This document shows, in pieces, positions 6,190 through 55,722 of a DNA stretch of 64,000 bases. Numbering within the stretch: position 1 is the stretch's first letter; each line of letters starts with the position of its first letter. A model generated the notes under the pieces. It saw only the letters and a list, made by a program, of their open reading frames with translations, ran no database searches and was not told where the DNA came from. The position numbers and the translations under genes were made by a program. This DNA is from Blumeriella jaapii (Eukaryota; Ascomycota; Leotiomycetes; Helotiales; Drepanopezizaceae). The stretch is from contig VWND01000004.1 of NCBI GenBank assembly GCA_009599575.1, positions 1,356,001 through 1,420,000 on the forward strand. The letters are read 5' to 3'.

Positions 6190-9100
6190 TTGGTTTAAAA
6201 ACCAATTAATCAAAAACCGAACTTCTTAGCCCTATACTTTTTCGTTTTTTAACCCGTTTTTGGCCTTTTTGCTATTGGCTTTTGTAAAGGAGTAGCGTTT
6301 CGCTTGTCGTTTAAATTATTTTATTTATTTTGCTTTTCTGAAAAATGGCTCGATAAAATATCAGTCGAGATATCGTTTAAACCTACGAACGTTTTAATAA
6401 TCTTTTTGTCGATAATATTATCAGATATCGCCGCGACGGGTGCTTTCTACGACTTTTCTCCGTAAATAATAAATTTCAGCTTTTAAACGTGGTTTTACGT
6501 TTTGCAAAAAGCGCTAAAAAGTTTTGTATTAAAATCGTAAAAGTAATCGATTAATTCGTCGTAATTAAAACCGATTAACGCTTTTGCTTCGCGTAAAACT
6601 GATAGGTCGGACTACGGTTGTCTGCCGACGAATGCTTTTGAAAAGGCTCCGAAGCCTGTAAAAAAAACTACTTTACGAAATGGTTCGGAAATAGTCGTTT
6701 GCAATCGAAACTACCGAAAATGCTATAATTGCTTTCGCCGTAATACAAATAATATTAAATTGCTTATCGGATTATCGTTTTCGAAATAGTTTTTGTATTT
6801 CTGCGCCGTATAATTGTTCGAATAAACTAATATTACGCCGTCGGTTTTTTAAATCCTGAATCTGACGAAAACCTTTTGTTTAATCGAAAAGCTGACAGAA
6901 ATTATTTTATTTTTTATTTCGTAGTTTTCGGTTTTTCAATCCGATAAAATAGCCGAGGCCATTATTTTAAACGCGCTAAAATACGAGAAAGCTGGGCTTT
7001 TCTAAATAGTTTTAATCAGCTTGGCGTCGTAGTGTAATTACAAATAAGCTTCGATTATTTTCGAATTGTATGCGAATATAAGCAGAACGTAATAATCGAA
7101 AATGGCGTCGGTAAAATCTTCGATTTTTTTCTTTTTCTAAAAGTCGGCGATATCGAACTTCGTAATTATAATACGGTCGGAGCCAGCGAAATTTAAAACG
7201 ATCGGAACGTTAAAATATGTTACGAAACGGCAATTTCCAGGATTTCGAATAATTAAAATAGCGAAATAAAAGCCGGAATGCATTCTGAAAGCTTATTAAA
7301 TAAAACTGTAAAGCATATTAGCAAAAAAAATTATAAGCGCTTCTTGGGTTTTAACCAGTCGAAAATAATATTTATATATAATTATCTTTTCTTTTATAAA
7401 ATACAGCAGTGGCTTGTTTTTTCCGTTGTAAAACCTTACGTAATTAACGAATTCGCAGCTTAATTCAGACAGATTTTGAAATATATTTTCGGTCGAAAAG
7501 CTAAAAAAATCGGCTTTTAAAAATATTCGTTGTTTTCATTTTTCCACGTTTCAATCGAGCTTTATAATCGCGCTAAAAGCCTTAAGATCTGTTTTAAAAT
7601 TTGCGTAGCTCAGATAAACTTTAGCACGCGCTTAAGTAATTCTCGCAATTTTTCGTCGAAATATAAACTAATTATTAAAATCAATTTCGAACACGTCGTA
7701 ATCCGAATTTTTAATAACAGCGAATCGATTAGCGAAGCCGACAACGTTAATTTTTTTTATAATTAAATCGCAATACGCCGCGTAATAGCGTATGTAAAAA
7801 TGGCAGAATTTACCGTTTTTTTTAGCGTTAACGTTATTTGTAAAAACGAAATTAAAAAATCGGAGTTTCTCAGCGAAAAAAAGCTCGAGTAAAAACGGGT
7901 CACCGTTTTCAAAAGTCTTTTTTATTTGCTTTAGCGTATCATATTTGCAATCTTTCGAAAAAAACTTAATTCAGTTTTCGTTCGAAGCAAAAGAAAAAAA
8001 GCTGACGGATTTATTTGGCTTTTATATAAAAATATCGAAGTAAAACTTCTGGATTGTTTTATCGTCGAAAGCGAAAGTTTTAAACAAAGCAATTTAATTT
8101 TATACTTTTTATATAATTTTTTTCGCGATAATTTCGATATCTTTTTCCAAGCTTTTTCGATCGAATCGCGCAATAGTCGAAATTTTAAATACTTTTATCA
8201 AAATCTGAAATATTAACGGTTCGACGTTTTTAAACGCAACAAACGTTTTTAATATTTGCGTATTCAATTTCGAAAAGTCAGATTCAAAATCGTTTAAATT
8301 TTTTCTTTTCGAAATACTAAAATATTTTAAGTTTGATTTTGTAAAATCGTCGCGTTTTTTATTAATTAGCTTAAAACTTATAATTCGGCGTTGATTTCCG
8401 ATTGTTTTTATTCGCGGTGCTTTTTTTGCTAGCGACGCGAATAATTTTCTTTTCCGAACAAAAAAAGTTTCGAAAATATCGGCGCGCTTTTCCACGTTTT
8501 CTGTTTTTATTTTTTTCGAAATCGTTTCTATAAATACAATAGGCTTTTTGTATTCGAATAAGCGATTGTTTGCTATCACGCTTTTAATTTCGTCTTTTGA
8601 TTCGTTTTCGATAATTAAAAATAAAAATCGCTAAATTGTTTTAATTGCTTTAAAAGTATTAATTGCCACCGCGTATATTTTTTCGAATTAAACGAAAATA
8701 ATATTAGCTTTTTCGTTTTCTTCGTCGTCGTAAGCTTAAAATATCGGAATAGCGTCGTTTTTTTTTTTCGATATAAAAATGCCGCATTTGGCGACGCTTA
8801 ATTTTTTATTTTAAAAAAAGGTCAGATTTAAAGTTTCGCAGCCGACTAAAACTTTTTTTAGCGATTATATAACGTCGTCGATCAGTTTGCAAACAGCTGT
8901 AAAAAAGCTTATAAATTTGCGGACTTTTGGATTATTAGCTTTTAAAGCTTACGCTTTGAAAATGTAAGCGTTTAATACTCAGATTCTTTTTTTCGTAAAA
9001 GTAATAGTTTCGAAAAAGCGAGCGAAATGCCGAAATAAAATAATACCGATAATTTTACTAAAAACGTATTTTTAAATATATTTTTCTCGTTGATTTAACA

Positions 9101-9480
9101 AAAAGCGTAATATTCGGTCGGTCATCTCTTTTTTATTATCCCGAGCTTTTCTTGCTCCGGCGAAAGCTTTTAAAGCGTTGTCGTAATTTAGCAGAAACTT
9201 ATCGTAATCAAAGCTTTTACAAACGAATTTAACTTTAACGAAGCTTTCGTAATCGAATAGAAATTCGTTAACGTTTTTAATTATTATATCGAATTGCTTT
9301 ATAAACGTTTTTACGAAAGCTGCTTATTAATTTAAAATAGCGGTATTATATATTTGTTTAAATTCGGAAAAATTACGTATAATAATTTCGTTTTAAAATA
9401 AATTAAAAATAAATTTGCTAAGTTTAGCAACGCTTTGCTTAGGAAACGATATAATATCGATAAGTTTGTTAATTAAAAAA
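6190..9480 (-). pseudogene. additional ORF (ORF3) of Gypsy-3, unknown protein of about 1,090 residues
   Basis: A single minus-strand phase can be followed from about 9480 to 6190 without an evident frameshift. It is broken only by stops that are consistent with former CAA, CAG or TGG. That continuity over 3.3 kb is strong evidence of a real former gene. I do not recognise the product. Visible features are a charged helical stretch near the N-terminus (KAFAGARKARDNKKEMTDR, about 9115-9170), one PAL33-encoded peptide (FASLAKKAPRI, 8410-8442), a longest uninterrupted block at 8579-8109, and a basic C-terminus (KRPKTG, near 6250). No signal peptide, membrane anchor, zinc finger or nuclease motif is evident. 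It lies where env-like genes sit in retrovirus-like elements. The start codon cannot be fixed. Copy b keeps only about its first 75 codons. Confidence 0.75.
8410..8442. repeat. PAL33 copy 1 (in ORF3 of Gypsy-3a)
   Basis: 33-bp imperfect palindrome: left arm ATTCGCGGTGCT, right arm AGCGACGCGAAT, 9-bp centre. It is in frame in ORF3 (minus), encoding FASLAKKAPRI. Confidence 0.75.
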
Positions 9481-9969
9481 GTGTATTATATTTATTAAAA
9501 AGTAAATAGGAAAAAGTACGAAAATTATAGAATATTTATATTTAAAAGCCACGGGAATCCGCATGCTGTTTTTCCAATAAATTATAATTGTTTAGGTAAA
9601 TACTCGTTCAAAATAACGAAAAAAGTAAACAATGCAAAAAGTAATAAATAATAAAATGCATAAAAAATAGTTTTCGTAAAATATACGAATAATATAAATA
9701 TATCAAATATGCGGCTCAAACATATACAAAGCTTTTGTTTTAATAAACAAAAATACAATTAAACAAAAAAAAGTATAGTAAATGTTTTAAATAATATAAA
9801 AAAAAGTTTTAAAAATAAATAATATATATAAAACAAAATAATTAAATTGTATATAAGCAAAGCAAAACAAAAATAATAAAATAATATATAATAAAAAAAA
9901 AACATAAACAAACAAAAACAATAAAATAGTTAGTAAACAATTTTATAAGCATTTTTTTTCTTTTCGGTT
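9481..9969. other. extremely AT-rich spacer between pol and the additional ORF of Gypsy-3a
   Basis: About 490 bp made almost entirely of A and T with very few G or C, clearly more extreme than the coding parts on either side. No frame shows conserved coding character. The same spacer exists in copy b (about 57230-57715). It separates the integrase tail from the additional frame, so it could have been an intergenic region, promoter or intron before RIP. Confidence 0.6.
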
Positions 9970-11475
9970 ATAGGTGAAATTACGATTTAAATTGTGTTTT
10001 CAGCGGAATTATCGTTCGGTTGCTTTTAAACCTTTTTAAAGGATTTTTTTTTTTCAAAAGTATAATCGCTTTGGTCGGAATCGTCGTCGAAATCGTTGGA
10101 ATCGGAATCGCTGTCTAAATTAAAATCCAAAAAATAAATTTGCTGGTTTTTTTTATAAAATCGCTTTAACCGGTTAGCGGCGAACGTTTTTTTCAGTTTT
10201 GTTCCATCGAGTTTCGTAAGCTTATAATAGCTTTTATTTAACTCGGCTTCGCATACTTCGTAGAATCCGAGCTATTTATAATTAAATTTAATATCGGCCG
10301 ATTTGTCGATAGCGCGTTAAACGTCGTAAATTAAAACCAAATTTTTTTTTTTGATTAGCGTTTTTTTTAAAACCTTGGTTTTATCTCAAACTTTTTTAGC
10401 TGCTTTTTTATACTTTTTTTTTTTTAAAATTATTTTTTTTATATTTATATCGCGGTAATTTAATTGTTTAAATTTTATTATTAATAAATTTGCTTTCGTT
10501 TTTATTTTAACCACGTTATAAAGCTTTTATACAAGCTATTTTGTTTCCAAAAGCAGTCGAGCGTTTCTGCCGTATTAAATAAAAAATAAAATTATTTTAA
10601 TAAAAGCGTATATATATATACGCATAGTAAAAAGCATTTCCGAGAATTTCCGCGATCAACTTTTATAACCCTTTCGAATAGCTTTTGAAAAGCCGTTAAA
10701 AATATTTTTATAGCTTCGTTCTACGAATCTGTTATTTTTCGAATTGTAAATTAAAATTTAAATGCGTTAAATACTATATTTTTTTGTAAAAGTCTCGATA
10801 ACGCTTTTGTTTTTAAATTTATTATCGACGTTTAATTTACTAAACAAATCGTATCGATATACAACGTTTTCTCAAAAAAAAGTCGTTATAACTTCGGAAA
10901 TAGCGTTTCGAAAAAGTCGCTTTTCAGACTATTCAGAAAAATCGTCGATAGCGAATACGAAACATATATACCCGCGGTCGGTAATCGATACGCGTATAAC
11001 GTCGAAATTAACTTTTTCTTAAATTCTAAAAAATTACGTCGGATATAATAAGTTTTCTTTTCGGCCAAGCTTTCGTTTTTAGCAAAAAATGCAGCTTTTA
11101 ACGAAAGCTTTGCAGTTTTCGAAGCATTTTTTTTATTAAAAGTCGTTTTTGGTTCGGTAATAAATAGCTTTTGCTTTTTTATAAAACACTTTTTCGTAGA
11201 TTTTTTTTATAATTTAAAACTTATCAATTTTGTTATTTATTACTAAGCGTTTTTAATATATATTGTTTTTTATTTTGTACAGCTTTTTGTCGGCTAAAAT
11301 ATAATCGAAAGCTTGATTTTTAAATAATTTAAACTAATAATTTAACACGCTAAATAATTTAAATAAAATAATTAAATAATATACGATTAAATAAAAGTCG
11401 TCGGTTTTGTAATTATCGATCAAAAGTTTATTTTCGTCGTTAATCGGTTTATTCCGATCGTTTTCGGTTAAATTC
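9970..11475 (-). pseudogene. integrase relic with acidic C-terminal tail, Gypsy-3a
   Basis: Below RNase H the minus strand encodes an integrase: a zinc-binding/catalytic region around 11300-10600 whose degenerate blocks resemble the 'NGxxERxH...' part of gypsy integrases, a linker, and a C-terminal stretch ending KKTFAANRLKRFYKK (near 10180) then an Asp/Ser-rich tail (LDSDSDSNDFDDDSD, near 10100). It would have inserted the cDNA. Catalytic D,D,E residues cannot be confirmed individually because of RIP. Copy b equivalents are 55865-57200. Confidence 0.7.
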
Positions 11476-11508
11476 ATTCGCGGTACTAGCCGAAATAATA
11501 ACGCGAAT
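11476..11508. repeat. PAL33 copy 2 (Gypsy-3a, RNase H-integrase region)
   Basis: 33 bp, ends ATTCGCG and CGCGAAT. Minus-strand reading FALLFRLVPRM. It pairs with the next copy 30 bp away and is orthologous to 55690-55722 in copy b. Confidence 0.8.
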
Positions 11509-11538
11509 GCTTTTTCGGCCCGAAAATCGGTGTTTTTC

Positions 11539-11571
11539 ATTCGCGATACTAGCCGAAATAACAACGCGAAT
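11539..11571. repeat. PAL33 copy 3 (Gypsy-3a, RNase H-integrase region)
   Basis: 33 bp, ends ATTCGCG and CGCGAAT. Minus-strand reading FALLFRLVSRM. Orthologous to 55627-55659 in copy b. A second PAL33 in the same frame 30 bp downstream suggests tandem duplication or double insertion. Confidence 0.8.
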
Positions 11572-11579
11572 AGTTTTGG

Positions 11580-13190
11580 CTTTGTAAAACTTAAAACGCA
11601 AATAGCGAAGCAGCCGATTTCGTTAGCGATCCATTCGTTAATATTTTATTCGCTTTATTTAACGAAATCAAATAAATAAAAGCGTTTTCGTTTAAAAAGG
11701 CCGTTTGCCGCTGTATTAATTATTCTTTTGATATATTTAACTTCGAAGTTTATAAATCGTATTCAAACTATTTAATTAATAACGAATGCTTTTAACAAAT
11801 TATTGGCTTTTTTATTTAATTAATCGATAAAAACTTTTGCGTTTGTTTTCAAAATAAAATATACGCCGTACAATTCGTTTTTTATCTTTTTTATTGCTTT
11901 AAAAGCGCTTCGATATTCTCGTTTAATAACATCGTAGCGTGCTTTCGCGGAAAACTATAGGCCGCTTTCGAATCGTAAAAAATATCGTTTTTTATTTTTA
12001 TCGATTTATTGCAATACAGCTTTTTAACCGAAAATACTAGCGTCGACGGTCAAAATAATTTCTTTTGCGTTTGGGCTATAATCGATCCGCATAAAAAATA
12101 GGGCCGATAAAAAGTCGTTTTTAAAAACTTTTATAACTTTGCTTTGTTTTTCTCTCCAAACGAAATCGATTCTTTTTTTTATTATAGCGTAAATGGATGC
12201 AGTTTTCTGAGAAAAGTTTTTAATTTAATTACGGTAATAAATCATAACGCTAATAAAAGCTTTGGCTTCGATAATATTTTTACATTTTTTTTATTCGCAG
12301 ATTTTTTCAATTTTCTTTCGTTGCGAATAACGGCCAGCGCTATTAATTATATAATTAACGATATTTATTTCGAGCATGCAAAATTTTAATCGAAAGCTAA
12401 TAATAGCTTTGGCTTTTTCGAAACAAATTATAATTTTGTCGATGTTTTAAATATATTTTATTATATAGCGTCGAATTTTAAAAAAAATCTTTTTATTATT
12501 ATAATATAATTTAAGGCCTTTTACTCCGACGTCGTTAACGTAAAATAAAGCAATATCGGAAATGCAAATTATAAAAATCTTATATACGACTTTTACGAAC
12601 TAAGCGACTAAATTAATGGCTCTTATAAATACTTTAATTATACGTAATAAACCGATTGAAATTTGTATTGCCGTTATATTTCGAAATCGTAGATTAAGCA
12701 TTAAATAATCGTAGCCGGAAAACAGATCGAAAAAGGAAACGATTATCAGTCTTGCGAATTCGTTCGAAAATTAATCGACGTTAAATGGCACGTTAGCATC
12801 TCGTATCGTTATTCTGTTTATTTCGACGATTGCGATAATAAATTTGTAAATGCTTTTCTTTTTTTTCGCAACGATAAACCATTTGTTTTTATATAAGCCG
12901 TGGCAAAACTCGAGGATCTTTTACTTAATTCGTTTTTAATATTTCGATTATTTTATTTTAAAAAGCTTTAAAAACTGAAAAAATCTTTTTTTGCCAGGCT
13001 TCGTAAAATACGATTTTAATATCGATATAAAACGTAACGTTAAAGCTGAATTGGCTTATTTCGGTAAAATCGAAAACTATAGCTTTTTTTCGGTTGCGTA
13101 GAACTTCGTATAAAACCTTTTTCTTTTTTAGCAAAAATTGGATTCCGATTGCTAAATTATCAAATCGTTTTTTTATAAATCGGCTGCCAA
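11580..13190 (-). pseudogene. reverse transcriptase and RNase H relic of Gypsy-3a
   Basis: Conserved RT blocks are readable in order on the minus strand: WFIVAKKK (near 12880), FFDLFSGYD (near 12715), then FYVNDVGVKG around 12531-12542, where the catalytic YxDD has become Y-V-N-D. Further down are the RT connection (KAFISVMIYYRN near 12260) and the RNase H area. This is the gypsy RT lineage with the F-S-G-Y-D and D-D-V-G-V-K-G signatures. Two PAL33 palindromes (11476-11508, 11539-11571) sit near the RNase H-integrase junction. RIP stops are frequent. Confidence 0.85.
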
Positions 13191-13483
13191 ATAATAAACT
13201 GGAAAATCGGCCGGTAATAAATCTTTCGAGTTCGCCGGTAATTAATTAAAATAGTTTTGTTGCTTTATCTTTTTCGAATTAATCGTTTATTTTTTCGAAG
13301 ATATTTTTATCGGATTCGCTAAAATTCACGAATCGTATTTTATTAGCTTTGCGCTTATAAAAAATGCTGATATTAATACAAAAAAGTAGGGTATATAAAT
13401 CGGATTTGTTTAATACGAAAACGAAATCTTCGGAATTTTTATTTCCGAATTAATAGCCAAAAATATTAATATTAGCCAATTTC

Positions 13484-13516
13484 ATTCGCGGTGCTATCTC
13501 GATTAATAACGCGAAT
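13484..13516. repeat. PAL33 copy 4 (Gypsy-3a, protease-RT linker)
   Basis: 33 bp, ends ATTCGCG and CGCGAAT with centre degraded by RIP. Minus-strand reading FALLIEIAPRM. Orthologous to 53957-53989 in copy b. Confidence 0.8.
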
Positions 13517-13664
13517 GCTTTTAGCCGAGTATTTTTCAGGTTTTGTTATAGCTTAGCGTTTGTTTTAGGACCAAAGCCGGCTATTCGTTTCCCGATAAAA
13601 CGTCGACTAAAAAGACTTTGTCGCCGGCGACGATAATTTAATTTTAAAAAAACCGGTTTCAGTT

Positions 13665-13988
13665 TCAAAAAAAGGCTTTTATTTGGCCGTTTTCGGTGTA
13701 TTTAAAACTGACGAAACTTTCCAAAATCCAAAGCATTTTAAAAATAATAAAATAAAAGCATTTTTTTATTATCAAAAAGTCTTTATAAATAATAATACTT
13801 TTAACGTCGATTTTTATATTTCGTACAATTCTATCAAACTTAATAATATTTTTATTAACGGTAATATAAATCATTCGTTTATCGGTAATAATCGGAACAT
13901 TATTAGCTTCGGCCGTTTTCTGGTTTATATAATTAACTTCGGCTCCATTATCGAATAAAACGAAAGCGGTCGTATTTTTCTTAAGCAT
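13665..13988 (-). pseudogene. retropepsin-type protease relic of Gypsy-3a
   Basis: A 107-codon open stretch with FVLFDNGAEVNYINQKTAE near its start: the aspartic protease D-S/T-G-A loop, here D-N-G-A because Ser is now Asn (G-to-A change). It sits between Gag and RT as expected and would release mature Gag and Pol. Copy b has the equivalent at about 53488-53810, reading D-N-K-T. With the active-site loop altered it cannot be functional. Confidence 0.85.
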
Positions 13989-14439
13989 AATTTTTATCTT
14001 TAACGCTTTTATAGCCGTATAAAAGCAGTTTCGTCGTTTTGATTTTTAAGTTTTTATAGCGAAAACTAAAAGGCTGATTTTTTTCGAAGATTCTTTTTTA
14101 TCGGCTAAATTAATTACAATATTGTAAATTTTTTTTTAGTTTTTTTCCAATTCAAAATCGTTTTTTTTTCGAATGATTTCAACTTTCTCGTTTCTTTTTA
14201 ATATAAAAATTTGTTTATTAATAACTTTGTCGAATTTCCTTTTTATGCTAAATAAATCGCTGAATTTCAATTTAATCTTTTGTTTTATAATTCGTTTAAT
14301 AGCTTCGTCGACGGCTTCGGAACTAATATATTTATCGATTCATTTCTCGCTTCGCATTAATAATAAACGCTTAGAAGCTGGTACTTTTTGAATAATTTAA
14401 ACCGGAGTATCGGTATCGATATCTTTTATATCGTCGTTA

Positions 14440-16289
14440 ATTTCTTTTATTATAAGCGTTTTTCTGATGGTTTCATCGGTTTTTTCTCGAATTCCAAAAT
14501 CTTTTTCCCTTTCGATTTTAACGTTTTTTTTTACATCAGTTGGTTTGGCGAATAGAACAGAAGCACTTTGCTTTTTTGTAATTCGCTGGCTTAATTATAC
14601 AATTATAATATCTGCAGATGCGATACTTGCATTAGCAATATATATATTTGTTTTTTATTTATATACTTAAATTCTACTTATATTTAAAATAAAAGTTTTT
14701 TTTTTAATTAATACGCTTTTTGGAATATTTTCTTTTTTATTAGTGAAAATCGTTTTTATATTTTTTCTGTTTTCCAAACAATCGTTTTATTTCGTACTTT
14801 TTATTTTCAAGCGAATAATATTTAATCAGCTTTAATTTTCAGCTTTGTTAAAAAGGCTTATTTCTGCTTTCGTCGGTCCGAAGCAAATCGCTCCGTACTT
14901 ATTAATATAACAGACTTTATTATTTATACAAAAATTAAATATTTTGCATTCTGAGCGAATATAAAATTCTTCGCAGTAAATTTCTTTGTTATTACAAAAT
15001 CCATACTTAAGGCCACGAAGTCTGTTTTGATAATTACTTTTACTATTTTAATAACCGCGATTTTAGTTTCCGCGTTAGTTTTTTTCTTTTTTTTAATAAT
15101 CGTTATTATAATTAATATTTCGCTAATCTTAATCGTTAGCACGAAAAAATTGCTATTAGGCAGCTATTACTTTTACGATGGCTTGGCGAAGTTAATCGCT
15201 TCGCGCATCTTAAAAAAAATAATTGTTATAAAAGTTATTTTAATCGTTTTTATTATCCGAATTAACGTAAAAAAGTTTTTTTTGCTATTGCATAAAACCT
15301 TCGACTTTGCTTTAAAATCCTTGAATTTTAATATCGGTAAATTTTAATACGAAAGTTTCGATATTTTTATTAAGCTTTTCCAAGCCTGTAAATTTTGCAA
15401 AACGATTAAATAATATAATAACTAGTTGTTTTTTAGCGATTTCGGTAACTTTTAATAGCTAAGCATATTTTTGCATTAAAGCTTCCACGTCTTTTTTATA
15501 AATAGGAAAAGGAGATTTTTCTTGGTTTATAGTTTTAATAATACGTTCGCTTTGGTTTTGTTTAAAAACGAATTTTATAAATTTGAAATATTAATCGAAA
15601 GTTTCAAAATCTTGTTTATTAATTTTAAAATACTTAATAGTTTTATTGCGAATGCTAATTGAAAAGCCAAATAAAAACAATTTTCTTTATTTAACTTCGC
15701 TTAAAACCTTTTTATTAACAAAAACGTTAAAAACTTTAATATAAATACGATAATAAGCCTTGAGTTTTTTGGCTTAACGGGTCGTTATAATAAATTGTTT
15801 AAGAAAAGCGATAGTATCGCGAATTTATTAGCGGTCGTAGTCTCGGAATTCCGATTTCAAAGCTTTAATTAACTTACGCTAATCTCGAGCCTTAATAGCC
15901 TTTTATTTATTCATCGATTTAATAATATTTTTAATAATTGAATTATAATAACGAAGGAGTTTATCGAATATTTCAGTCTCAAAAACTCCGAAATCCTTAC
16001 AGGTTTTTTTATATTTTTCGATAAAATCGGTAACGTTGGCGCTACTAAATAAAAATGCACCAAAAAAGCCAGAAAAAAGCATGCGGCCTCGCATAAAAAA
16101 ACGAAAAGCGTCGTTGTTTATAATATTAGCGAAAGTGTTAGTAAGGTTTAAATTAAATAAATAAATGTTTTTTAAAATTGCAGGTTGAGGGTTTTTAATA
16201 TAAAAGGAATCGTTTTCAATAAAGAAGCTATTAAAAAGGTCTTTGTGTTTTCTAAAAGAATTAAATAAAATAAGATTGCGTTCAAACAT
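14440..16289 (-). pseudogene. Gag relic of Gypsy-3a
   Basis: The best-preserved block (16289-15903, 128 codons) begins MFERN and contains SSANVTDFIEKYKKTCKDFG, the retrotransposon Gag pattern in which a short helical module precedes 'DFIExYxxxCxxFG'. The copy-b Gag also begins with an ATG (MSERN, 51185), supporting this start. A Cys/His region lies near 15010-14940 (YIRSEC followed by an ICFGP-like tail), a degenerate zinc knuckle with Cys/His replaced by Tyr or Lys. Gag would form the particle and bind RNA. Many RIP stops follow the first 128 codons. Confidence 0.7.
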
Positions 16290-16866
16290 TTAAATAATAT
16301 GTTAAAAAACTTGTTTTTTGATAAGTTAATTGAATTAATATAATATTGCTATATAATCTACGGTCTCGATATTCCGTGGCTTAAGCTAATGCACGTACAG
16401 CCATTTCTTTACTATTTTTAATAAAAAGCCGCAAATTGTAATTGCTACAATCATAAAGCGCAAAATCAAAAGGTTAAGTTTTCGCCAAGCGTTTAATTAA
16501 AAAAGATTTAGTTCAGAAAGGCCGAGCGCAGCGGTCGAAGCGTACGAACCAATATTCGATTTATTATTCTTAAACAAAAAAGCGATTTTCGAATTTTAAA
16601 TTTCGCACGGTTCAAAATCGCCTAACCGTAATTTCAAACGTTTCTGAAATATATTGCACTTTTATAATCCAATAACTGTGCGCAAAATAAAAAAAACTAT
16701 TAAAAATCTTTTATATAATGCAGCTGCGAATAATATCATATAAGAAGTCCTTTAAGCCGTAATAGCGAAATATCGAAATCGACCTTGACTTGCGAATTCG
16801 AGAGATGCATCGGCGAATATATAAAAACGAAACACCGAAATTTGAATTCTTACGTAGATTATCAAA
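16290..16866 (-). other. 5' leader of Gypsy-3a
   Basis: Sequence between the 5' LTR and the Gag start. It should contain the primer binding site next to 16866, but the bases there (TTTGATAATCTACG on the minus strand) do not match a primer tRNA I can name. There is no coding frame of note. The equivalent region in copy b is 50609-51184. Confidence 0.5.
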
Positions 16867-17133
16867 TGTAAAAATAGATAGGAAAACCAGACTGATACGG
16901 CCATATGTCGGTGGATAAAATAATCTAGGGAATCCTTAGAAAAAACTGAAAAGAAAAAAAGAAAAATAAGTGAAGGTATGAATTGGATTGTATACTTATA
17001 GTACTATCTAAGGGAATGCTTTGCTTTTATACCTGTTAAAGATAGTCAGTGGCAGGGGGTCTCGGAGGGGTCCATGCCTCGACCATAGCTAAAACTACCA
17101 ACTCCCATTAATACAAGGTATCACCGTTTTACA
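16867..17133 (-). repeat. Gypsy-3a 5' LTR (267 bp)
   Basis: Better-preserved LTR of the element, keeping GC-rich tracts such as AGGGGGTCTCGGAGGGG near 17055-17072. It lies beside the Gag end of the minus-strand element, so it is the 5' LTR and would hold the promoter. No clear TATA motif can be picked in this AT-rich context. Confidence 0.92.
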
Positions 17134-18929
17134 GTATTTCAGCTTTTTTTTATTTATAATAAGTTCGATTTTATAATCGTAGGGCCGGTAAAAGGCTAGC
17201 TCGTTACTGGCGGCTTTAAAAAATACGTAACCGAGGTTTTTGTACTTCGGGGAAAAAGATTCGAAAAAAGGTTTATTCGAAATTAGCTTTGCTAAACTAA
17301 TTAAAAAGATCGAAATCGATATTTTATTGGTTTTGAAACGTTCGAAAAAACTGTAAAATCGGATTTTAAAAAAAATATTATACGTAAAGTCGTTTAATAT
17401 TTTATCGATTTCGTATAAAAAGATTAAAAACATTTCAATTGCTTTTTTTCTAAAAATTAGCTTAAAAGCGTATGCAATAATTTAGCAGATAAAAATTGGG
17501 TAAACAGTAAATTAAAAAACTCGTTTTCGAATTAATCGTTTGAAAAGTTTAAAAAATGGCTTATTTAAATTATCGATTATATTAAGCTGAAAAGCTATCG
17601 CGGCGAAAGCTTTTTTTCGGTTTTTAATATAATTGTTTTTCGTAAAACAAAAAAGCTGTTTTGACGAAAAAAAAAAAAAAAAAAATAATAATAAAAAAAA
17701 GATCGGCAGCTTAGAAAAATAATATAATTTTTTATATTATTTTATTAGCGTCGCTATCGAAATTGACACCGCGAATAAAATTCGATTTTTTCGCGCTTCG
17801 TATAACGTCGTAAATCTGCTATAATTAGTTAAGGTTTTTGTTACGTTTTACAGCGTCGTTTTAATAGCGAAATTAAATTTTTCGGAAATGCAAATAAAAA
17901 ACTTTAATATAACGAGCGTAAAAAGCTGTAAAAGGGTAAGACTTCGGCCAATAAAGCTTGCGTTTATTACAATTTAATAAAATTTAATGTTCGGCCAACC
18001 AAGCTTTTTTTAGAATCATATTATAATTTCCGAAATTAATAAATTAAAAAAAAGTATTCGATTGTATTCGATTGCTAATAATAAAATTAAAAAGCGTAAA
18101 ATATATAATTAAATAGCTACGAATTTTATTATATTTTTTTACAAAAAAAAAGCCGGGAAAAATTAAATTAAAAGTTTTAAAAAAAAAAAATTTAATCAGC
18201 GCCGAATCGATTAACGTATAACCGTTCGTTTTAAAATCGGCGAACGCTTTTATTTTATACGAAAAACTATTTTTAATAAATATAACGGGAATTATTAATA
18301 AATCGCTATTAAGAAGCTTTCGAACGTTAAAATAACGCATATCGCGTAATACGCTTAAAAAAAAGGTTTTGCTTAGGCCTGGGCGTTTTTTTCGATTAGC
18401 GAAAAAGTTTTTAATTTTTTTATATGCGTTTTGAAAGTCGTTTGGAAAAAGATTTTCGTTTTTATTATTATTTTCAAAAAGCGAATTTTCGGCCGGTTCG
18501 ACCTTGTTTATATTTATTAGCTTAAAAAAGCCTTTGGGTAAAACCGAAGATCGGCTTGTAAAAAATCGTGCAAATTAGTTTTTTTAAACTTTTTAATATA
18601 AAATAAAAAACGAGCGTTGTCGTTAATCCGATCGAAAAAAAACGCTAAAAAAAGCGTTTTAACGTGGAAAAAAAAGAAAAACAACAAAAGGCTAAAAAAA
18701 AGCTTGTGAAATATTTAAACGATTTTCGTACGTACGATTTGATTCGTAATACGCTTTGATTAAAAATTTATCATTTTAATAAATAATAAATTTGATTAAA
18801 AAGCGATTCGCATATAAAATTCGTTTAGCCAATTGATTTTGTTTTTTTTATCGGACGGCGGTAAGCTAATTTTTAAAAATCGTTGTACGCGTTTATTTTA
18901 AATACAATTTTTTTCGTAAACGCTTTGGT
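17134..18929 (-). pseudogene. Gypsy-1 copy a, right part: RT start, protease and part of Gag
   Basis: Continuation of the element interrupted at 5836. On the minus strand from 18929 down it reads the C-terminal part of Gag, a protease domain (18340-18044; MRYFNVRKLLNS, then ADFKTNGYTLIDSALIK, the retropepsin D-S-G-A region with S and G replaced), a linker with a long A-tract and PAL33, and the N-terminal RT region up to 17134. It is colinear with Gypsy-1b (22211-24010). At 18929 it is cut by the LTR of Gypsy-1b, and its Gag N-terminus and 5' LTR are not found beyond. Confidence 0.85.
17744..17776. repeat. PAL33 copy 5 (Gypsy-1a)
   Basis: 33 bp, ends ATTAGCG and CGCGAAT (one arm mutated). Located between the protease and RT of Gypsy-1a, at the same element position as 22830-22862 and 38495-38527. 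Confidence 0.75.
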
Positions 18930-19196
18930 TGTAACGATCTAATCAGTCGGAGGGCTGGGAGATCAATCAACTGGTCGCCGTGTTCACATGGTATAAAACG
19001 AGCCTTTGGTTCTGTAACAAAAATATTCATTTAAAATTAATAATTGCAAAAGGCAAAGGTTGTTAAAAAAAGAAAGTCTTATATATATAAATAGTTTCCA
19101 TAATTAATAAGAAGATCTATCAGAAGATCAGAAAGCTTGCAGCTATACGTAATTGCTGAGGTGATACGAAAAATAGCAAAAAAGTAAATCGTTATA
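18930..19196 (-). repeat. Gypsy-1b 3' LTR (267 bp)
   Basis: Matches 25076-25342 directly and 36013-36276 in inverse. On the plus strand it starts TGTAACGATCTAATCAGTCGG and ends AAATCGTTATA; the ancestral ends are probably TGTGACG...CGTCACA. Confidence 0.92.
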
Positions 19197-19439
19197 CTAT
19201 CCTCCCGTCCGAAAAAAGCGCGCTTTCGAGCTTTTATTTATTAGTACGTCGCTATTTAAATAATCGTACAAATCCAAACCTTCGGAATACGCTTTTAACC
19301 AGTTTATAAGTTTTGCAAAAAAATCGGAAAGCTTTTTATGCGCCAAATAAAAGTCGCGCACTTTTAAAAAAGCGTATATAAAATCAAACGCGGAATATTA
19401 CGTAAGATTTTTATTTAAGCTTATTTAAAAAGCTTTGTA

Positions 19440-20690
19440 TTAAAAGGTTTTCCGCTGCATTCGATAAACGATTAATTCCTCGATTTCGTATTTAAGCTTA
19501 TCAATTATATTAATAAGTTTAAAAGCTAAATTAATCTGATTTAAAAGCGCGTCGTTAGCTGCTTTACGCAATCGACTAGCGTGAAAAACTGAATATACGT
19601 TTATAATATTAGAAAAGTCTAGTTTAAAAACGTTATCGAAAATTTTGGCTATAATTTTAAAAAGGTCGTTTATAAAATTGTCGAGTTTGCGAAAAAGCCG
19701 AAAGGTCGGAAATAAACGCATATCGAGCCAAACGTAATCGTTAACGTTAAAATCGATCGCGCGGCGAAATTTATTCGTATTTTTTTTTATTTTATCGTAA
19801 GCTTGTTAAAAATGCGATTTAGCAAGGTTTTAAGCGTCGTAATAGCGGCGAACGTACGCATAAGCTTCGTTTGCGTTTAATTTATATAAAAAATTAAAAA
19901 AAAGAAAAGTATCGAGCTTTCAGTTTCAATTAATATAAGAAATATAACCGTGTACAATTTCAAAAAATAAAAAGCCACCTAGACTTTCGTAAAAAAAAAT
20001 TATTTGGGCGAAATCCATTATTAAAAAAAATTCGCTCCAATCGTTTTAATAAAAATTTACGAAAAATCGAAAGCGTTTTTGCAAATATTAATTGTAAATT
20101 TCGGTCTGATCGTCGGTTTCGGAATAAGCGGCTATCGAAAGCTTTAGTTGCGTATCGAGTATTTTGTTTAATGCAAATTAAAAAATAAACTAATATTAAA
20201 AGTCACGATCGCTAATAATACTTTTTAAAAAACTAAAATACTTATATACGTGGAATATATACAATTTGGCGAAGCTTCGAGCGTCGATATTTTTATAGCA
20301 AAAAATCGAAATAGCTTGCTTGGAAAAGCGATTTATTATTATAAACACGTTGTCGTAATCGTATTTGTTTTTGTTAAAACTGCAAAAGTTTATTATAACG
20401 TGTTTTTAAAAATAGTCAAAAACAGAAAAAGGCCGAAAAAGGCCGGAACGTTTATTTTTTAAAATAAAACTTTTTCGATAAGCGTAGCAATTGCGATAAT
20501 ATTATTTTACAAAAGCTGTTATATCTCGCTAATAATATTAGTCCGAAAGCAATTGCGTAGTTTTGCGAGCGTTAAAATAAACGATAGAAATTTGATCGTG
20601 CATTTTTCGTACAAAAGCCAAACGAAAATAATCGACGTTTGGTATTATCAAGCGACCGTAATATAGCAGCAGATCGCGTTTAAATATATA
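19440..20690 (-). pseudogene. integrase and C-terminal domain relic, Gypsy-1b
   Basis: The C-terminal block (19721-19440, 93 codons without a stop) reads MRLFPTFRLFRKLDNFINDL, then VFHASRLRKAANDALLNQI. This is the 'RPSRKLD...GPF...VFHxSLLRKA' module that closes chromovirus integrases before the chromodomain-like end. The upstream catalytic core is colinear with the better-read Gypsy-1c (40690-41640) but has many stops. The frame closes at 19440, about 240 bp before the LTR. Confidence 0.85.
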
Positions 20691-42169: not shown

Positions 42170-42300
42170 TATAACGATTTACTCTTTTGCCCCTCGTATT
42201 ACTCCAGCAACTACGTATAGCTGCAAGCTCTCTGGTCTTCTGATAGGTCTTCCTATCAACTATGAAAATTATTCATATATATAAAGCTTTCTTTCTTTAG
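42170..42300 (+). repeat. Gypsy-1c 3' LTR, left part
   Basis: First 131 bp of the 3' LTR (starts TATAACGATTTACTC, a RIP form of TGTGACGACTCATTC), cut by Copia-B at 42300. It continues at 48485. Confidence 0.93.
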
Positions 42301-48660: not shown

Positions 48661-50343
48661 AGCAAATACTTTTAAACGATAAGTTGCGTTTTTAAATTTT
48701 TAAAAAAATAGCTACTAAAAGAAAAATTACGCTAGCGCTTATGAAAATAACTTTCGATAAACGCGACGACGGCAGCATTTTTTCCGAAAAAAACGGCGAA
48801 AACGAAAAAATTAAAATATTTACGGAAAAAATCGCAAATCCGATTTTCGTAATCGCATACGATATGCAGGATTATATAATTATAAACGATTTGTTGCAAA
48901 TTAATAAAAACTTTTTTTTTCGAAGCGCAACGAATGCAAATTCGCAATTAAAATTTTAATTATTAACTGCGATAAAACAAATTGTTTTTTCAAAGCAAAT
49001 TAATAATGCTTTTGAAACTTTTCGAATTGCGAATTTTTTTGATTCGACATATCTACGAACAATTTTACGTAGTATACGCTAAAATAAAAAAAATAAAACT
49101 TATAATCGGTCGCAAATACTATTAAAAAGCTATAAAAGCAGACATATAACAATACGTTTCGAATTATCGTTGCATACGAATAAAAGCTAGACGCGATAAA
49201 ACCCCGGGCTTTCTGAAGCTTTTGCTTATATGCAGCAGGCTTTATTAATATTTAACGATAAATTTCACGAAGTTTTTATTAAACGAAAATAATTACGATT
49301 TCGCTTTCGTAATAATAAATCGCTTATTTAGAAAGCTTTTGTCAGTTTTTTATTATAAAACTATTATAACGAAAAAACTGGCAGTTTTCTTTTTAATCTA
49401 TTAGATACGCTATTTCGGCATGCCGGATTTAATTAATTCGAACCGAAAAGCTTAGTTTGTTTCGGTTTTTTAATAAAAACTTTGCCGTATATTAAAAATC
49501 AAAATTAAATTAATTATTACGTACAGTTTTAATATCGATAAGCAAACCGAAATAATAAACTAATATATTAAAAGACGCTTCCGCCCTTTTTGCTTTTATT
49601 ATCAAAATAATTAAAAACGCTTTTTACTTTTAATAAACATTATACAGCTGATTTTGCAGCACGAGTTTTTCGGCAACGTTTTTTTTTTAAGTTTTAAATA
49701 AATACAAAGCTCGCATATTTTAAAATACAAATAACTTTCGCTTTTTTCGCTCGGCCATCGAAAAGCTTAACCGCGACGAAGTTTTGTATTTGGCTTTCCG
49801 AATTAAAAAGATTATAAAATACGTTTAATTATTTATTGCGCAGTAATAAGCCAAAATAAAACGCTTCGCTAATTTGCACAAACGACCGATAAATTAAAAT
49901 ATAAGCGACGAGATATTAATAAATATTAAAAATTAAAAGCTCGACCGATCTTTTCGAAAGCTTTTAAACAAATAATACGGCTTAATCAAAATCGTCAACA
50001 AAATAAAAAAAAGTTGAAGGCTTGACTTTTCCGCGAATTAATTAATTTAATTAATTTTTTATTTATATTCGCTTGGAAAACATGTTAATAACTTTTTACC
50101 CAACGACGCTCCGAACCAGCTTTTATTCAGCTATTTCTTAAACAAACGAAATAAAAAATCGAAAAAATAATAAGTTCGAAATTGCACAAAAAATTATTAT
50201 AACATCAGATTAATTAAAAAAACGCTGATAAAAATCTCGAATAATGTTTTTGTTTTAACGTTATAACGGCTTTTTATATCTTTTAAACATTTTATCGATC
50301 GCATCCTACCGCCAAAAGCCTTTTACGAGCGCTTTCCGCTTAG
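48660..50343 (+). pseudogene. Gypsy-4 copy b: integrase fragment
   Basis: Plus-strand fragment colinear in inverse with 31700-30631 and extending further 3'. The integrase core is clear: DFAFVIINRLFRKLLSVFYY (about 49275-49340), RYFGMPDLINSNRKAQFVSVF (about 49420-49470, if a stop is read as Gln), then RILKIKIKLIITYSFNIDKQ (about 49475-49530; family STAYHPQTDGQ) and QTEII. A C-terminal module follows to 50343 (IFAWKTC near 50070). The D of SDRG is now N. It is cut at 50343 by Gypsy-3b. Confidence 0.85.
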
Positions 50344-50608
50344 TGTAAAACGGTGATACTTTGTATTAATAGGATTTGGTAGTTTTAGCTATAATCAAGG
50401 CATAAACCCCTCCGAGACCCCCTGCCACTGACTACTTTTAACAAGTATAAGAGCAAAGCACCCCGTTAAATAGTACCATAAGCACGCAATCCAATTCATA
50501 CCTTTATTTATTTTTCTTTTTTTTTTCAGTCTTTTTTAGGGATTTCCTAAACTATTTTACTTACCGATATATGACCGTATTAGTTTGGTTTTTTTATTTA
50601 TTTTTATA
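50344..50608 (+). repeat. Gypsy-3b 5' LTR (265 bp)
   Basis: Inverse of 16867-17133. Starts TGTAAAACGGTGATA and ends with a RIP form of the terminus (ATTTTTATA). It keeps CCTCCGAGACCCCCTGCC near 50407. Confidence 0.92.
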
Positions 50609-51184
50609 TTTAATAATTTACGCAAAGATTTAAACTTCGGTGTTTCGTTTTCATATATTCGCCGATGCATTTTTTAAATTTATAATCAAAATCGATTTCG
50701 ATATTTCGCTACTACGGCTTAAAAAATCTTTCATATGATATTATTCGCAGCTGTATTATATAAAAGACTTTTAATAGCTTTTTTTATTTTGCGCATAGTT
50801 ATTAAATTACAAAAGTGCAATATATTTTAAAAACGTTTGAAATTACGGTTAGGCAATTTTAAATCGTGCGAAATTCAAAACTCGAAAATCGTTCTTTTAT
50901 TTAAAAATAACAAATCGAATATTAGTTCGTACGCTTCGACCGCTGCGCTCGGCCTTTTTGAATTAGATTTCTTTTAGTTCAACGCCTGGCGAGAATTTAA
51001 CTTTCTGATTTTACGCTTTGTAATTGTAGCAATTACAATTTGCGATTTTTTATTAAAAATAATAAAGAAATGGCTGTACGTGCATTAGTTTGAGCCACGA
51101 AATATCGAAACCGTAAATAATATAGCAATATTATATTAATTTAATTAATCTACCAAAAAACAAGTTTCTTAATATATTATTCAA
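50609..51184 (+). other. 5' leader of Gypsy-3b
   Basis: Inverse equivalent of 16290-16866. AT-rich, no frame of note; Gag begins at the ATG at 51185. Confidence 0.5.
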
Positions 51185-53060
51185 ATGTCTGAACGCAATT
51201 TTATTTTATTTAACTTTTTTAGAAAACGCAAAAACTTTTTTAATAATTCCTTTATTAAAAACGATTCTTTTTATACTAAAAACCTTTAATTTGCAATTTC
51301 AGAAAACATTTATTTATTTAATTCGAATCCTACCAATACTTTCGCTAATATTATAAACAACGACGATTTTCGTTTTTTTATGCGAAGCCGCATGCCTTTT
51401 CCTGACTCCTTTAATACACTTTTATTTAATAGCGCCAACGTTATCGATTTTATCGAAAAAAATAAAAAAATCTATAAGGATTTCGAAGTTTTTGAATTTA
51501 AAATGTTCGATAAACTTTTTCGCTATTATAATCCAACTATTAAAAATATTATTAAGTCGATAAATAAATAAAAGGCTATTAAAGCCCGAAATTGACGCAA
51601 ATTAATTAAAAGTTTAAAATCAGAATTCCGAAACCACGATCGCCAGCAAATTCGCGATATTATCGCTTTTTTTTTGATTATTTGTTATAACAACTCGCTA
51701 AGCTAAAAAACTCAAAGCTTATTATCGTATTTATACGAGAGTTTTTAACGTTTTCGTTAACAAAAAGATTTTAAACGAAATTAAACAGAAAAAATTGTTT
51801 TTACTTAGCTTTTCAACTAGTATTCGCAACAAAACCATTAAGCATTTTAAAATTAATAAACAAAATCTTGAAACTTTCGATTAGTATTCCAAATTTATAA
51901 AATTCGTTTTTAAACAAAATCAAAACGAACGTATTATTAAAACCATAAACCAAAAGAAATTTTTTATTTATTTACAAAAAAAAAGTAGAAGTTTTAACAT
52001 AAAAACATGCCTAATTACTAAAAGTTACAAAAATCGCTAAGAAACAATCAATTATTATATGATTTAATCGTTTTGCAAAACTTATTAGTTTAAAAATATT
52101 TAATAAAAATATTAAAACTTTCGTATTAAAAATTACCGATATTAAAATTTAAAAATCATATAACAAAATCGAAAGCTTTATATAATAGCAAAAAAAACTC
52201 TTTTACGTTAATTCGGATAATAAAAACGATCAAAATGATTTTTATAACAATTACTTTTTTTAAAATACGCGAAGCGATTAAATTCGCCAAGCTATTATAA
52301 AAATAATAGCTGCTTAATAGCAACTTTTTCGTATTAACGATTAAAATCAGCGAAATACTAATTATAATAACGATTATTAAAAAAAAAAAGAAAATCAACG
52401 CGGAAATCAAAATCGCGGCTATTAAAATAGTAAAAGTAATTATTAAAACAAACTTTGTAGCTTTAAATGTAAATTTTGTGATAATAAAGAAATTTATTGC
52501 GAAAAACCTTATATTCGCTCAGAATGCAAAGCATTTAATTTTTGTGTAAATAATAATATTTGTTATATTAATAAATACGGAACGATCTGCCTCGGACCGG
52601 TAAAAGCAAAAATAAGTTTTTTTAATAAAGCTGAAAATCAAAGCTGGTTAAATATTATTCGTTTAAAAATAAAAAGTACGAAATAAAACGATTGTTTAGA
52701 AAACAAAAAAAATGCAAAAACGATGTTTATTAGTAAAAAAAAACATTTCTAAAAGCGTGCTAATCAAAAAGAAAACTTTTATTTTAAATATAAGTAAAGT
52801 TCAAATGTATAAATAAAAAATAAATATATATATTACTAATGCAATTATCGCATTTGCAAATATTATAATTGTATAATTAAGCCAACGAATCACAAAAAAG
52901 CAAAATGCTTCTGTTTTATTCGCTAAACCGATTAATGTAAAAAAAAACGTCAGGATCGAAAAAAAAAAAGATTTTGAAATTCGAAAAAAAACCGATAAAA
53001 CTATTAAAAAAACGCTTATAATAAAAGAAATTAACGACGATAAAAAAAATATCGACACCG
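51185..53060 (+). pseudogene. Gag relic, Gypsy-3b
   Basis: Starts MSERNFILFN at 51185, with one stop before a longer block (51380-51571) containing NSANVIDFIEKNKKIYKDFE. A Cys-rich zinc-knuckle remnant (CEKPYIRSECK) lies at about 52497-52535 with the following motif ICLGP near 52595. Its layout equals Gypsy-3a Gag. Confidence 0.72.
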
Positions 53061-53439
53061 ATACTTCGATTTAAATTATTTAGAAAATACCAATTTTTAA
53101 ACGCTTATTATTAATGCGAAGCGAAAAATAAATCGACAAATATATTAGATCCGAAGCTGTCGACGAAGTTATTAAAAAAATTATAAAACATAAGATTAAA
53201 TTAAAATTTAGCGATTTATTTAATATAAAAAAAAGATTCGACAAAGTTATTAATAAACAAATTCTTATATTAAAAAAAAACGAAAAATTTAAAATTATTC
53301 GAAAAAAAAAATCGATTTTAAATTAAAAAAAAAGTCAAAAAGAAATTTATAATACCGCGGTTAATTTAGCCGATAAAAAAAATCTTCGAAAGAAATCAGC
53401 TTTTTAGCTTTTATTATAAAAACTTAAAAATCAAAACGA

Positions 53440-53810
53440 CGAAACTACTTTTACACGGCTTTAAAAGCATTAAAAATAAAAACAATACTTAAGAAAAATA
53501 CGACCGCTTTTGTATTATTCGATAATAAAACCGAAATTAATTGCATAAACCAAAAAACAGCCGAAATTAATAAAATTCCGATTATTATCGATAAACAAAT
53601 AATTTATATAACCGTTAATAAAAACATTATTAAATTTAATAAAATTATACGAAACGTTAAAATCGACGTTAAAAATATTATTATTTATAAAAACTTATTA
53701 ATAATAAAAAAATGCTTTTATCCGATTATTTTTAAAATATCTTAAGTCCTGGAAATTCTCGTCAGCTTTAAATACACCGAAAACGGCCAGATAAAAGCTT
53801 TTTTTTAAAA
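53440..53810 (+). pseudogene. protease relic, Gypsy-3b
   Basis: Reads FVLFDNKTEINCINQKTAEI: the active-site loop D-S-G-A is now D-N-K-T, three substitutions all explainable by G-to-A changes. The rest is colinear with 13988-13665 (YTENGQIKAFF at the end). Confidence 0.8.
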
Positions 53811-53956
53811 TTGAAACCGATCTTTTTAAAATTAAATTACCGTCGCCGGCGACAAAATCTTTTTAATCGACGTTTTATCGAAAAACGAATAGCCGGCTTT
53901 AGCTTTAAAATAAACGCTAAGCTATAATAAAACCTGAAAAATACTCGGCTAAAAAT

Positions 53957-53989
53957 ATTTACGTCGCTAATCGAAATAGCATCGCGAAT
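53957..53989. repeat. PAL33 copy 8 (Gypsy-3b, protease-RT linker)
   Basis: 33 bp with a degraded left arm (ATTTACG) and intact right arm CGCGAAT. Orthologue of 13484-13516. Confidence 0.7.
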
Positions 53990-55626
53990 AAAATTGGCTA
54001 ATATTAATATTTTTAATTATTAATTCGAAAATAAAAATTTCGAAGATTTCGTTTTCGTATTAAATAAACCCGATTTATGTATTTTACCTTTTTGTATTAA
54101 TATTAACACTTTTTACAAGAGCAAAGCTGATAAAATACGATTCGTAAATCTTAGTAAATCCGTTGAAAATATTTTCGAAAAAAAAAACGATTAATTCGAA
54201 AAAAAAAAACGAAGCAATAAAACTATTTTAATTAATTATTAGCGAACTCGAAAAACTTATTACTAGCCGATTTTCCAGCTTATTATTTGGCAGCCGATTT
54301 ACAAAAAAACGATTTAATAATTTAGCAATCGAAATCTAATTTTTGCCAAAAAAAAAAAGTTTTATACAAAGTTTTACGCAACCGAAAAAAAGCTATAGCT
54401 TTCGATTTCACCGAAATAAGCCAATTCAGCTTTAACGTTATTTTTTATATCGATATTAAAACCGTATTTTACGAAGCCTGGCAAAAAAAAACCTTTTTAA
54501 TTTTTAAAGCTTTCCAAAATAAAATAATCGAAATATTAAAAAAACGAATTAAGCAAAAGATTTTCGAATTTTACCACGATTTATACAAAAACAAATAATT
54601 TATCGTTGCGAAAAAAAAAAGCATTTACAAATTTATTATTGCAATCGTCGAAATAAACAAAATAACGATACGAAATGCTAACGTATTATCCAACGTCGAT
54701 TAATTTTTAAACGAATTCGCAAAATTAACGATCGCTTTTTTTTTCGATTTGTTTTTAAGCTACGATTATTTAATATTTAAACTACGATTTCGAAATATAA
54801 CAGCAATTCAAATTTCAATCGGTTTGCTACGTATAACGAAAGTACTTATAAGAATTATTAATTCAATCGTTTAATTCGTAAAAATCGTATACAAAAATTT
54901 TATAATTTGTATTTTTGATATTGCCTTTTTTTACGTTAACGACGTCGAAATAAAAAGCTTCAAATTATATTATAATAATAAAAAAATTCTTTCAAGAATT
55001 CGACGTTATATAATAAAATATATTTAAAACATCGATAAGATTATAGTTTGTTTCGAAAAAGCCAAAGGTATTATTGGCCCTCGATTAAAATTCTACATAT
55101 CCGAAATAAATATCGTTGATTATATAATTAACAGCGCTGATCGTTACTTTTAATAAAAGAAAATCGAAAAAATATGCAAATAAAAAAAGTGTAAGAATAT
55201 CACCGAAACCAAAGCTTTTATTAGCGTTGTGATTTATTACCGCAATTGAATTAAATTTTTTTTTTAAAAAGCTGCATTATTTACGCTACGAAAAAAAAAA
55301 ATCGATTTCGTTTAAGAAAAAAAATAAAGCAAAATTATAAAAATTCTTAAAAACGACTTTTTATCGGCCCTATCGCTTATGCGAATCGATTACAGTCTAA
55401 ATGCGAAAAAAATTATTTTAATTATCAACGCTAATATTTTCGGTTAAAAAGCTGTATTATAACAAATCGACGAAAATAAAAAGCGGCATTTTTTACGATT
55501 CGAAAGCGGCTTATGATTTTTCGCAAAAACACGCTACGATACTATCAAACGAAAATATCGAAGCGCTTTTAAAAAAAAAAAAAAAAATTAAAAAGCGAAT
55601 ACTTTAAGTTTTACAAAGCCGAAATT

Positions 55627-55659
55627 ATTCGCGTTGCTATTTCGGCTGGCACCGCGAAT
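55627..55659. repeat. PAL33 copy 9 (Gypsy-3b)
   Basis: The best-preserved palindrome: left arm ATTCGCGTTGC, right arm GGCACCGCGAAT. Orthologue of 11539-11571. Confidence 0.8.
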
Positions 55660-55689
55660 AAAAAACATTGATTTTCGGGCCGAAAAAGC

Positions 55690-55722
55690 ATTCGCGTTAT
55701 TATTTCGGTTAATACCGCGAAT
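55690..55722. repeat. PAL33 copy 10 (Gypsy-3b)
   Basis: 33 bp, ends ATTCGCG and CGCGAAT, inner arm mutated. Orthologue of 11476-11508, spaced 30 bp from copy 9 as in Gypsy-3a. Confidence 0.78.

Follow-up and report, generated by a model that had tools for sequence, protein, structure and literature searches.

PAL33, a short palindrome recurring in the coding regions of two Ty3/Gypsy retrotransposon families of Blumeriella jaapii

How does one short palindrome come to stand at several places in the genes of two different retrotransposon families? The question is raised by a stretch of 64,000 nucleotides of the ascomycete Blumeriella jaapii (assembly GCA_009599575.1, contig VWND01000004.1, positions 1,356,001 to 1,420,000 of the forward strand), hereafter called the window, in which a palindromic 33-mer, PAL33, occurs ten times. 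Comparison of the window with itself places all ten 33-mers in two nested Ty3/Gypsy families, Gypsy-3 and Gypsy-1. The original prediction, made from the letters of the window, likened PAL33 to the in-frame Rickettsia palindromic elements (RPEs) and proposed to look for further copies in the genome, copies in host genes, precise empty sites and hairpin stability. The explanation to which we give slightly better than an even chance is that a hairpin module was duplicated on a few occasions, both inside the families and from one to the other, was tolerated in linkers, and was amplified by retrotransposition. PAL33 would then be a single small piece of DNA able to form a hairpin, measuring 33 bp from one arm end to the other, that settled at five coding positions in two Ty3/Gypsy families of the fungus.

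Five sites and their resemblance

A 33-mer is present at every one of the ten predicted places, and their reduction to five distinct sites, repeated by copies of the two elements, was borne out: sites A to D belong to Gypsy-3, and site E to Gypsy-1. Site A (8410..8442, minus strand, Gypsy-3 copy 1; gene-sense reading F-A-S-L-A-K-K-A-P-R-I) lies in ORF3. Sites B and C, 63 bp apart, lie in the RNase H-integrase region, on the minus strand at 11476..11508 and 11539..11571 in copy 1, and on the plus strand at 55690..55722 and 55627..55659 in copy 2. Site D falls in the linker between protease and reverse transcriptase (RT), at 13484..13516 in copy 1 (minus strand; ..LKAFALLIEIAPRMKLANINIFGY..) and at 53957..53989 in copy 2 (plus strand). 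The protease-RT linker of Gypsy-1 holds site E, which is seen three times: at 17744..17776 (minus strand) in the Gypsy-1 copy interrupted by Gypsy-3 copy 1, at 22830..22862 (minus strand) in the copy at 18932-25338, and at 38495..38527 (plus strand) in the copy at 36013-42299. ORF3 is the third long open region of Gypsy-3, after the integrase (window 6104-9400, minus strand).

The ends had been described as ATTCGCG and CGCGAAT or as mutants of one arm, an account that fits in part: the arms are perfect at six of the ten (8410, 11476, 11539, 13484, 55627 and 55690), while one mismatch is found at 17744 and 38495, and two at 22830 and 53957. When a single mismatch in the arms is allowed, the 47.4-Mb genome has 1765 matches to the pattern; the reversed control pattern has 2. 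Perfect arm pairs within 120 bp were also collected from 70 sequences (277,786 bases in all; loci that overlap, as recognised by their flanks, enter the count once), a sample that is enriched, most of its sequences having been chosen because they bear the motif; the only spacings found were 33 (82 pairs) and 96 (30 pairs), the latter being the cross-pair of the neighbouring sites B and C. The excess over the control and the confinement to these two spacings lead us to reject a chance origin.

The window is heavily mutated and RIP-like in composition, RIP being repeat-induced point mutation: throughout, CpG is enriched (observed/expected 2.9) and CpA depleted (0.55). RIP here seems to spare CpG, so that CGCG-rich motifs would be preserved in mutated DNA. 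Less mutated copies of Gypsy-3 have the arms ACTCGCG...CGCGAGT, and those of Gypsy-1 ACTCGCG...CGCCAGT; the ATT and AAT ends of the window are thus mutated forms. If one mismatch is permitted, ACTCGCG N19 CGCGAGT is found genome-wide at 134 places, against 6 for its control. Five less mutated Gypsy-3 stretches give site A as ACTCGCGTCGCCAGCAGAAAAAGCATCGCGAGT, C as ACTCGCGTTGCCATTTCGGCTGGCACCGCGAGT, B as ATTCGCGTCACCATTTCGGCTAGCACCGCGAGT and D as ACTCGCGTTATTAATCGAAATAGCACCGCGAGT. For Gypsy-1, 14 loci upstream of open RT frames were sampled, ten of which belong to the family; site E is present in all ten, as ACTCGCGGTGCCAATTTCGATGGCGACGCCAGT or close variants, and the remaining four, from two other families, have no E-type site, nor has L073. 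The ten loci have a GC content of 0.45-0.50 and long open frames, alongside heavily mutated copies, and this coexistence suggests recent transposition.

When the less mutated 33-mers of the five sites are compared, with E inverted, they are alike in 21-29 of 33 bases, while their 30-bp flanks are alike in 7-15 of 30, near background; the best of 9521 control 33-mers, the module's own copies excluded, scores 18 against site C. Differences from C that are transversions, a type of change not caused by RIP, fall at 2 of 104 arm positions and at 9 of 28 loop positions (Fisher p 1.1e-5, with E inverted and the arm/loop borders set after the fold was known). The stem has thus been conserved and the loop left free to change, and the five PAL33 copies share a common origin. 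The length of exactly 33 bp given in the original prediction stands as the distance from arm to arm; as the inserted length it is not proven. In single copies the pair just outside the 33-mer (-1/+1) is Watson-Crick at A, C and E, so that the palindrome may be 35 bp long; it is not so at B and D, and of 32 copies of site B, 30 have C at -1 and 19 have G at +1.

Palindromy, hairpins and mutation

Since the window bears the marks of RIP, it might be asked whether RIP of ordinary CG-containing linkers made look-alike palindromes. The composition of the window would agree with this, as would the ends of E, where ATT and AAT are mutated ACT and AGT, and so would the pairing at two of the sites: out of 16 possible Watson-Crick pairs, A has 9 in the less mutated form and 10 in the window, and B has 8 as compared to 11 and 12. 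At these two sites RIP has thus increased the pairing of the window copies. The palindrome at C (12 pairs, compared to 10 and 11 in the window), D (10-11, compared to 10 and 10) and E (10, compared to 8, 8 and 10) is, however, at least as good without RIP; the arms were common to the sites before RIP, and a hairpin of 7+5 bp forms at less mutated site C; the palindrome was therefore not made by RIP. For comparison, among 9521 pool 33-mers, the sites included, at least 12 pairs are found in 2 and at least 10 in 28. A pure RIP artefact was rejected on the grounds of C, D and E, with A and B less palindromic before mutation, and we consider such an origin of PAL33 most improbable.

Folding of single less mutated copies predicts a clear RNA hairpin at C (-18.4 kcal/mol, z -4.15), A (z -3.30) and D (z -3.15); the check on hairpin stability thus came out clearly for these three sites, and weakly for B and E. 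Stable predicted hairpins with a kept stem and a free loop are also what would be expected if the hairpin were kept for a role in the element RNA, such as pausing, packaging, frameshifting or dimerisation, and the protease and the D region are, by eye, in different frames in two Gypsy-3 copies. Frameshifting is not general, however: the protease end, site E and the pre-RT segment stand in one frame at nine of the ten less mutated Gypsy-1 loci (four of the nine stop-free and five with stops in that frame), with a frame shift after E in the tenth, L086, and we have rejected a general frameshift role for this reason. A comparison of the window with Rfam gave no match at gathering scores, and we know of no described signal that would fit four scattered hairpins in one RNA. 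We therefore hold an RNA role to be very unlikely.

Reading frames and peptides

The frame of each site was assessed from the mean number of stops in 90 codons in frames 1/2/3, which was 4.0/0.37/8.8 for A (27 copies), 6.4/0.03/7.6 for B (32 copies), 7.1/2.35/5.7 for C (34 copies), 7.8/2.9/6.7 for D (10 copies) and 1.5/2.3/3.4 for E (10 copies). All four Gypsy-3 sites thus have the fewest stops in frame 2, which begins at the second base, and their peptides are of the type [LF]A[LS][PL]xxx[AT][PS]R[VMI]; the frame of E starts at the first base, one base earlier than the open frame of A to D. In all ten less mutated Gypsy-1 loci E encodes T-R-G-A-N-F-D-(G/S)-D-A-(S/N) within an open frame that runs for no fewer than 217 codons. 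The claim that the copies are read in the same phase was therefore sustained for A to D and failed for E, so that phase is not conserved across the families; the F-A-V-L reading given for E had been taken in the wrong frame.

A common frame and peptide type at A to D would be in keeping with the view that PAL33 is kept for its peptide, for instance as a repeated linker or protease-processing site in the Gypsy-3 polyprotein, with D standing between protease and RT, and B and C between RNase H and integrase. This view predicts the same peptide at comparable junctions, but E, at the comparable junction of Gypsy-1, reads TRGANFDGDAS in the other frame. Moreover, the arms are conserved even at third codon positions (by eye, RIP-type changes aside) while the loop changes, and site A lies in ORF3, of which a 184-residue piece (from L089) had no Pfam match at E <= 0.1. 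Among 123 homologous proteins, 120 of them Gypsy-1 relatives with little bearing on A to D, there was no close match to any PAL33 frame, the best being 7 of 11. Taken together, we regard selection for the peptide as unlikely.

Site E is likely inverted relative to A to D, as judged from the bases themselves, which in so palindromic a sequence does not make the orientation certain. Inverted, E differs by fewer transversions than in direct orientation, with 3 compared to 6 against C, 4 compared to 7 against A, and 4 compared to 5 against D, and it would encode LASPSKLAPR, like the Gypsy-3 peptide. D and E share a place in the protease-RT linker, and might be thought to be one inherited linker, but E ends 83 residues before the pre-RT segment ISICQIT (L076), while D, by eye, directly precedes the segment presumed to correspond to it. 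The differing frames and the differing distance to the pre-RT segment speak against one inherited linker, and simple common descent of D and E was rejected on these grounds.

Insertion, mobility and known palindromes

As far as searched, PAL33 is restricted to two families, and its edges are fairly sharp and its copies are read in two frames. We suggest that the self-complementary segment may have been copied to new places in the complementary DNA (cDNA) during reverse transcription, by template switching or by snap-back priming at the hairpin, and that it would have survived where the insert keeps the frame and sits in a tolerant linker. Retrotransposition of the elements would afterwards have multiplied it, and this course of events would need neither a transposase nor a function of its own.

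Several observations weigh against this explanation. When the flanks of E were joined and searched for in the same genome, all 40 best-scoring Gypsy-1 matches were longer than the query stretch, by exactly 33 bp in 28 of them and by 27-39 in the others; the joined flanks of C and B gave, among the 40 best-scoring Gypsy-3 copies, 96 extra bases in 38 and 98 in one, the remaining match being listed with one flank only. Neither of these two sets of 40 best-scoring copies, at E and at B-C, thus held a precise empty site, so that insertion is deduced from the edges and not seen. These edges are themselves not perfectly sharp, since some likeness between sites extends to columns just beyond the 33-mer, with A-runs at -3 to -6 and +2 to +4. 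The predicted folds of the copies used for B (z -0.49) and E (z -1.50) are weak, and one frame is common to the four Gypsy-3 sites, for which the chance is 1 in 27 with three frames. Finally, the copying route, by template switching or snap-back, is one that we infer.

Other comparisons also bear on insertion. In a relative that is 36% identical across the RNase H-integrase piece, B and C are both missing, with gaps of 17 and 20 residues in their place, and at the level of this alignment it supports insertion in the present lineage, although it is not a precise empty site. Gypsy-1 has 431 protein relatives, with ~40-49% identity where the alignment spans the linker (among the 120 listed); in 26 alignments their linker was too variable for an empty-site comparison. 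In a protein search with the D region, 0 of 95 candidates scored. At one Gypsy-3 locus outside the 40 scored copies for B-C (L092), a single PAL33 has the flank of C on its left and that of B on its right, an arrangement that a collapse of 63 bp between the two repeats would give.

If PAL33 were instead a mobile palindromic micro-element of RPE or MITE type (miniature inverted-repeat transposable element), moved in trans and noticed only in high-copy retrotransposons, it should also be met in other contexts. Such mobility would agree with related palindromes at five non-homologous coding sites, in two families and two frames, with the probable inversion of E and with the fairly sharp edges. 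Patterns aimed at other contexts found three places (R at -1), four (S at -3) and five (perfect stem), all of them known centres; these patterns are blunt, as they require perfect arms, and the one with R at -1 would miss new sites if the element is 35 bp long with a C-G outer pair. Among the first places listed for the genome-wide patterns, classified by eye by their centres, all have the centres of A to E, bar two from the ACTCGCG pattern (L103 and L104), the flanks of which are unrelated; these two are chance matches, and some six such matches would be expected from the control. The flanks of the loci initially examined and of 32 further loci were inspected, and each of these places that bears the module stands in a known context. 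Of the 32, a first set of 12 places has nine in A-C contexts, one in that of D (L105, with a foreign right flank) and the two chance matches; in the second, all 21 module copies (20 loci) lie in contexts of A, B, C or E, with the left flank alone matching closely at one E copy (L125). No sixth site was found among the places listed or flank-checked, and no copy in a host gene, where perfect-arm patterns leave room for degenerate copies elsewhere.

Target-site duplications were sought as well: E has none, B shows one off-register 3-base match, and A and C show A-runs, while one copy of D (L090) has AAAAT on both sides exactly and two others (L091 and L093) are without it. There being none that is consistent across the sites, a target-site duplication was rejected. 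With no other context, no consistent duplication and no precise empty site among the scored copies, we consider a micro-element moving in trans rather unlikely.

At L105, and also at L071, the left flank of D and the module are followed by foreign sequence, which begins with TGTAACG at the right edge of the module; perhaps another element was inserted there.

The many further copies in the genome thus belong, as far as seen, to Gypsy-1 and Gypsy-3. The original prediction had staked itself on further copies and empty sites, of which the former are abundant and precise ones of the latter were not found; its dispersal into non-homologous genes is upheld in that five sites in two families are occupied, and dispersal as an independent element is unsupported. 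As the places listed in the searches include neither a copy in a host gene nor a sixth site, and the scored copies no precise empty site, we conclude that the copy number reflects two amplified retrotransposons, that copy number alone overstated mobility, and that independent movement of PAL33, found as a passenger of two families only, is unproven. The case calls for caution on two counts, as RIP rewrote the arms and the number of copies made the module look more mobile than it is known to be.

Among known systems, RPEs come closest in anatomy: like PAL33, they are palindromic, occur in several copies, stand in frame in unrelated coding sequences and add a peptide to them. RPEs are described in one account as being about 150 bp long, as lying in bacterial host genes and as forming ten families (PMC10969869). 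PAL33, in contrast, is 33-35 bp and was found in two retrotransposon families only, so that the likeness drawn in the original prediction extends to anatomy, with related hairpin-capable copies in frame at non-homologous coding sites, and neither to length nor, as far as seen, to insertion into host genes. That PAL33 is a nuclear eukaryotic counterpart of the RPEs, a selfish coding palindrome of 33-35 bp that enters genes of long terminal repeat (LTR) retrotransposons in either orientation and in several frames and uses them as vehicles, is an idea that we put forward as doubtful. MITEs share with PAL33 their inverted-repeat ends and the want of coding capacity of their own, but PAL33 is far shorter and has no consistent target-site duplication. 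Repetitive extragenic palindromes (REPs) of 20-40 bp, as one source gives them (PMC3733652), resemble it in size and palindromy; REPs are, however, extragenic and prokaryotic, while PAL33 is intragenic and stands in a eukaryotic genome. Palindromes in organelles presumed to spread selfishly, or lying inside coding sequence as in the mitochondria of Nematomorpha, have been described (PMC2670323, PMC6649704), but these belong to organelle genomes and not to nuclear LTR retrotransposons.

Our literature search brought up no account of an element of this kind in the retrotransposons of fungi. Coding palindromes are known mainly from bacteria and organelles; PAL33 would show that retroelements, too, are able to collect and carry hairpin modules in frame, and the old question of how in-frame palindromes spread gains a system in which the palindrome is present well over a thousand times.

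As for the elements themselves, Gypsy-3 copy 1 (5837..17136, minus strand by its open readings, with limits from self-comparison and junctions) has terminal repeats of 267 bp at 5837-6103 and 16867-17133 and is inserted in a Gypsy-1 copy. By eye, its junctions with Gypsy-1 suggest a duplication of the four bases GTAT and TG..CA ends, and an uninterrupted counterpart of the insertion site is visible at about 22212. Self-comparison also delimits Gypsy-3 copy 2, which is partial (about 50341..57937, plus strand), and the Gypsy-1 copies at 18932..25338 (minus strand, terminal repeats of ~260 bp) and 36013..42299 (plus strand). The RNase H of Gypsy-3 was assigned from a Pfam match, its integrase from alignment to a relative bearing the integrase domain, and its RT from the active-site region read by eye, the sole Pfam match of the RT piece being one weak unrelated family. 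The protease piece matched a retrotransposon peptidase alone, below the cut-off, and the Pfam match of the Gypsy-1 protease is likewise below it. Of the named proteins, the one closest to Gypsy-3 is a gag-pol fragment of Drepanopeziza brunnea, with 69% identity over 124 residues in the RNase H part.

The window also holds a different palindrome, GGCTGATCATGCGCACAATCACATGATCAGCC (42318-42349), with a related copy at 48286-48321; both lie within a 192-bp repeat of 93% identity.

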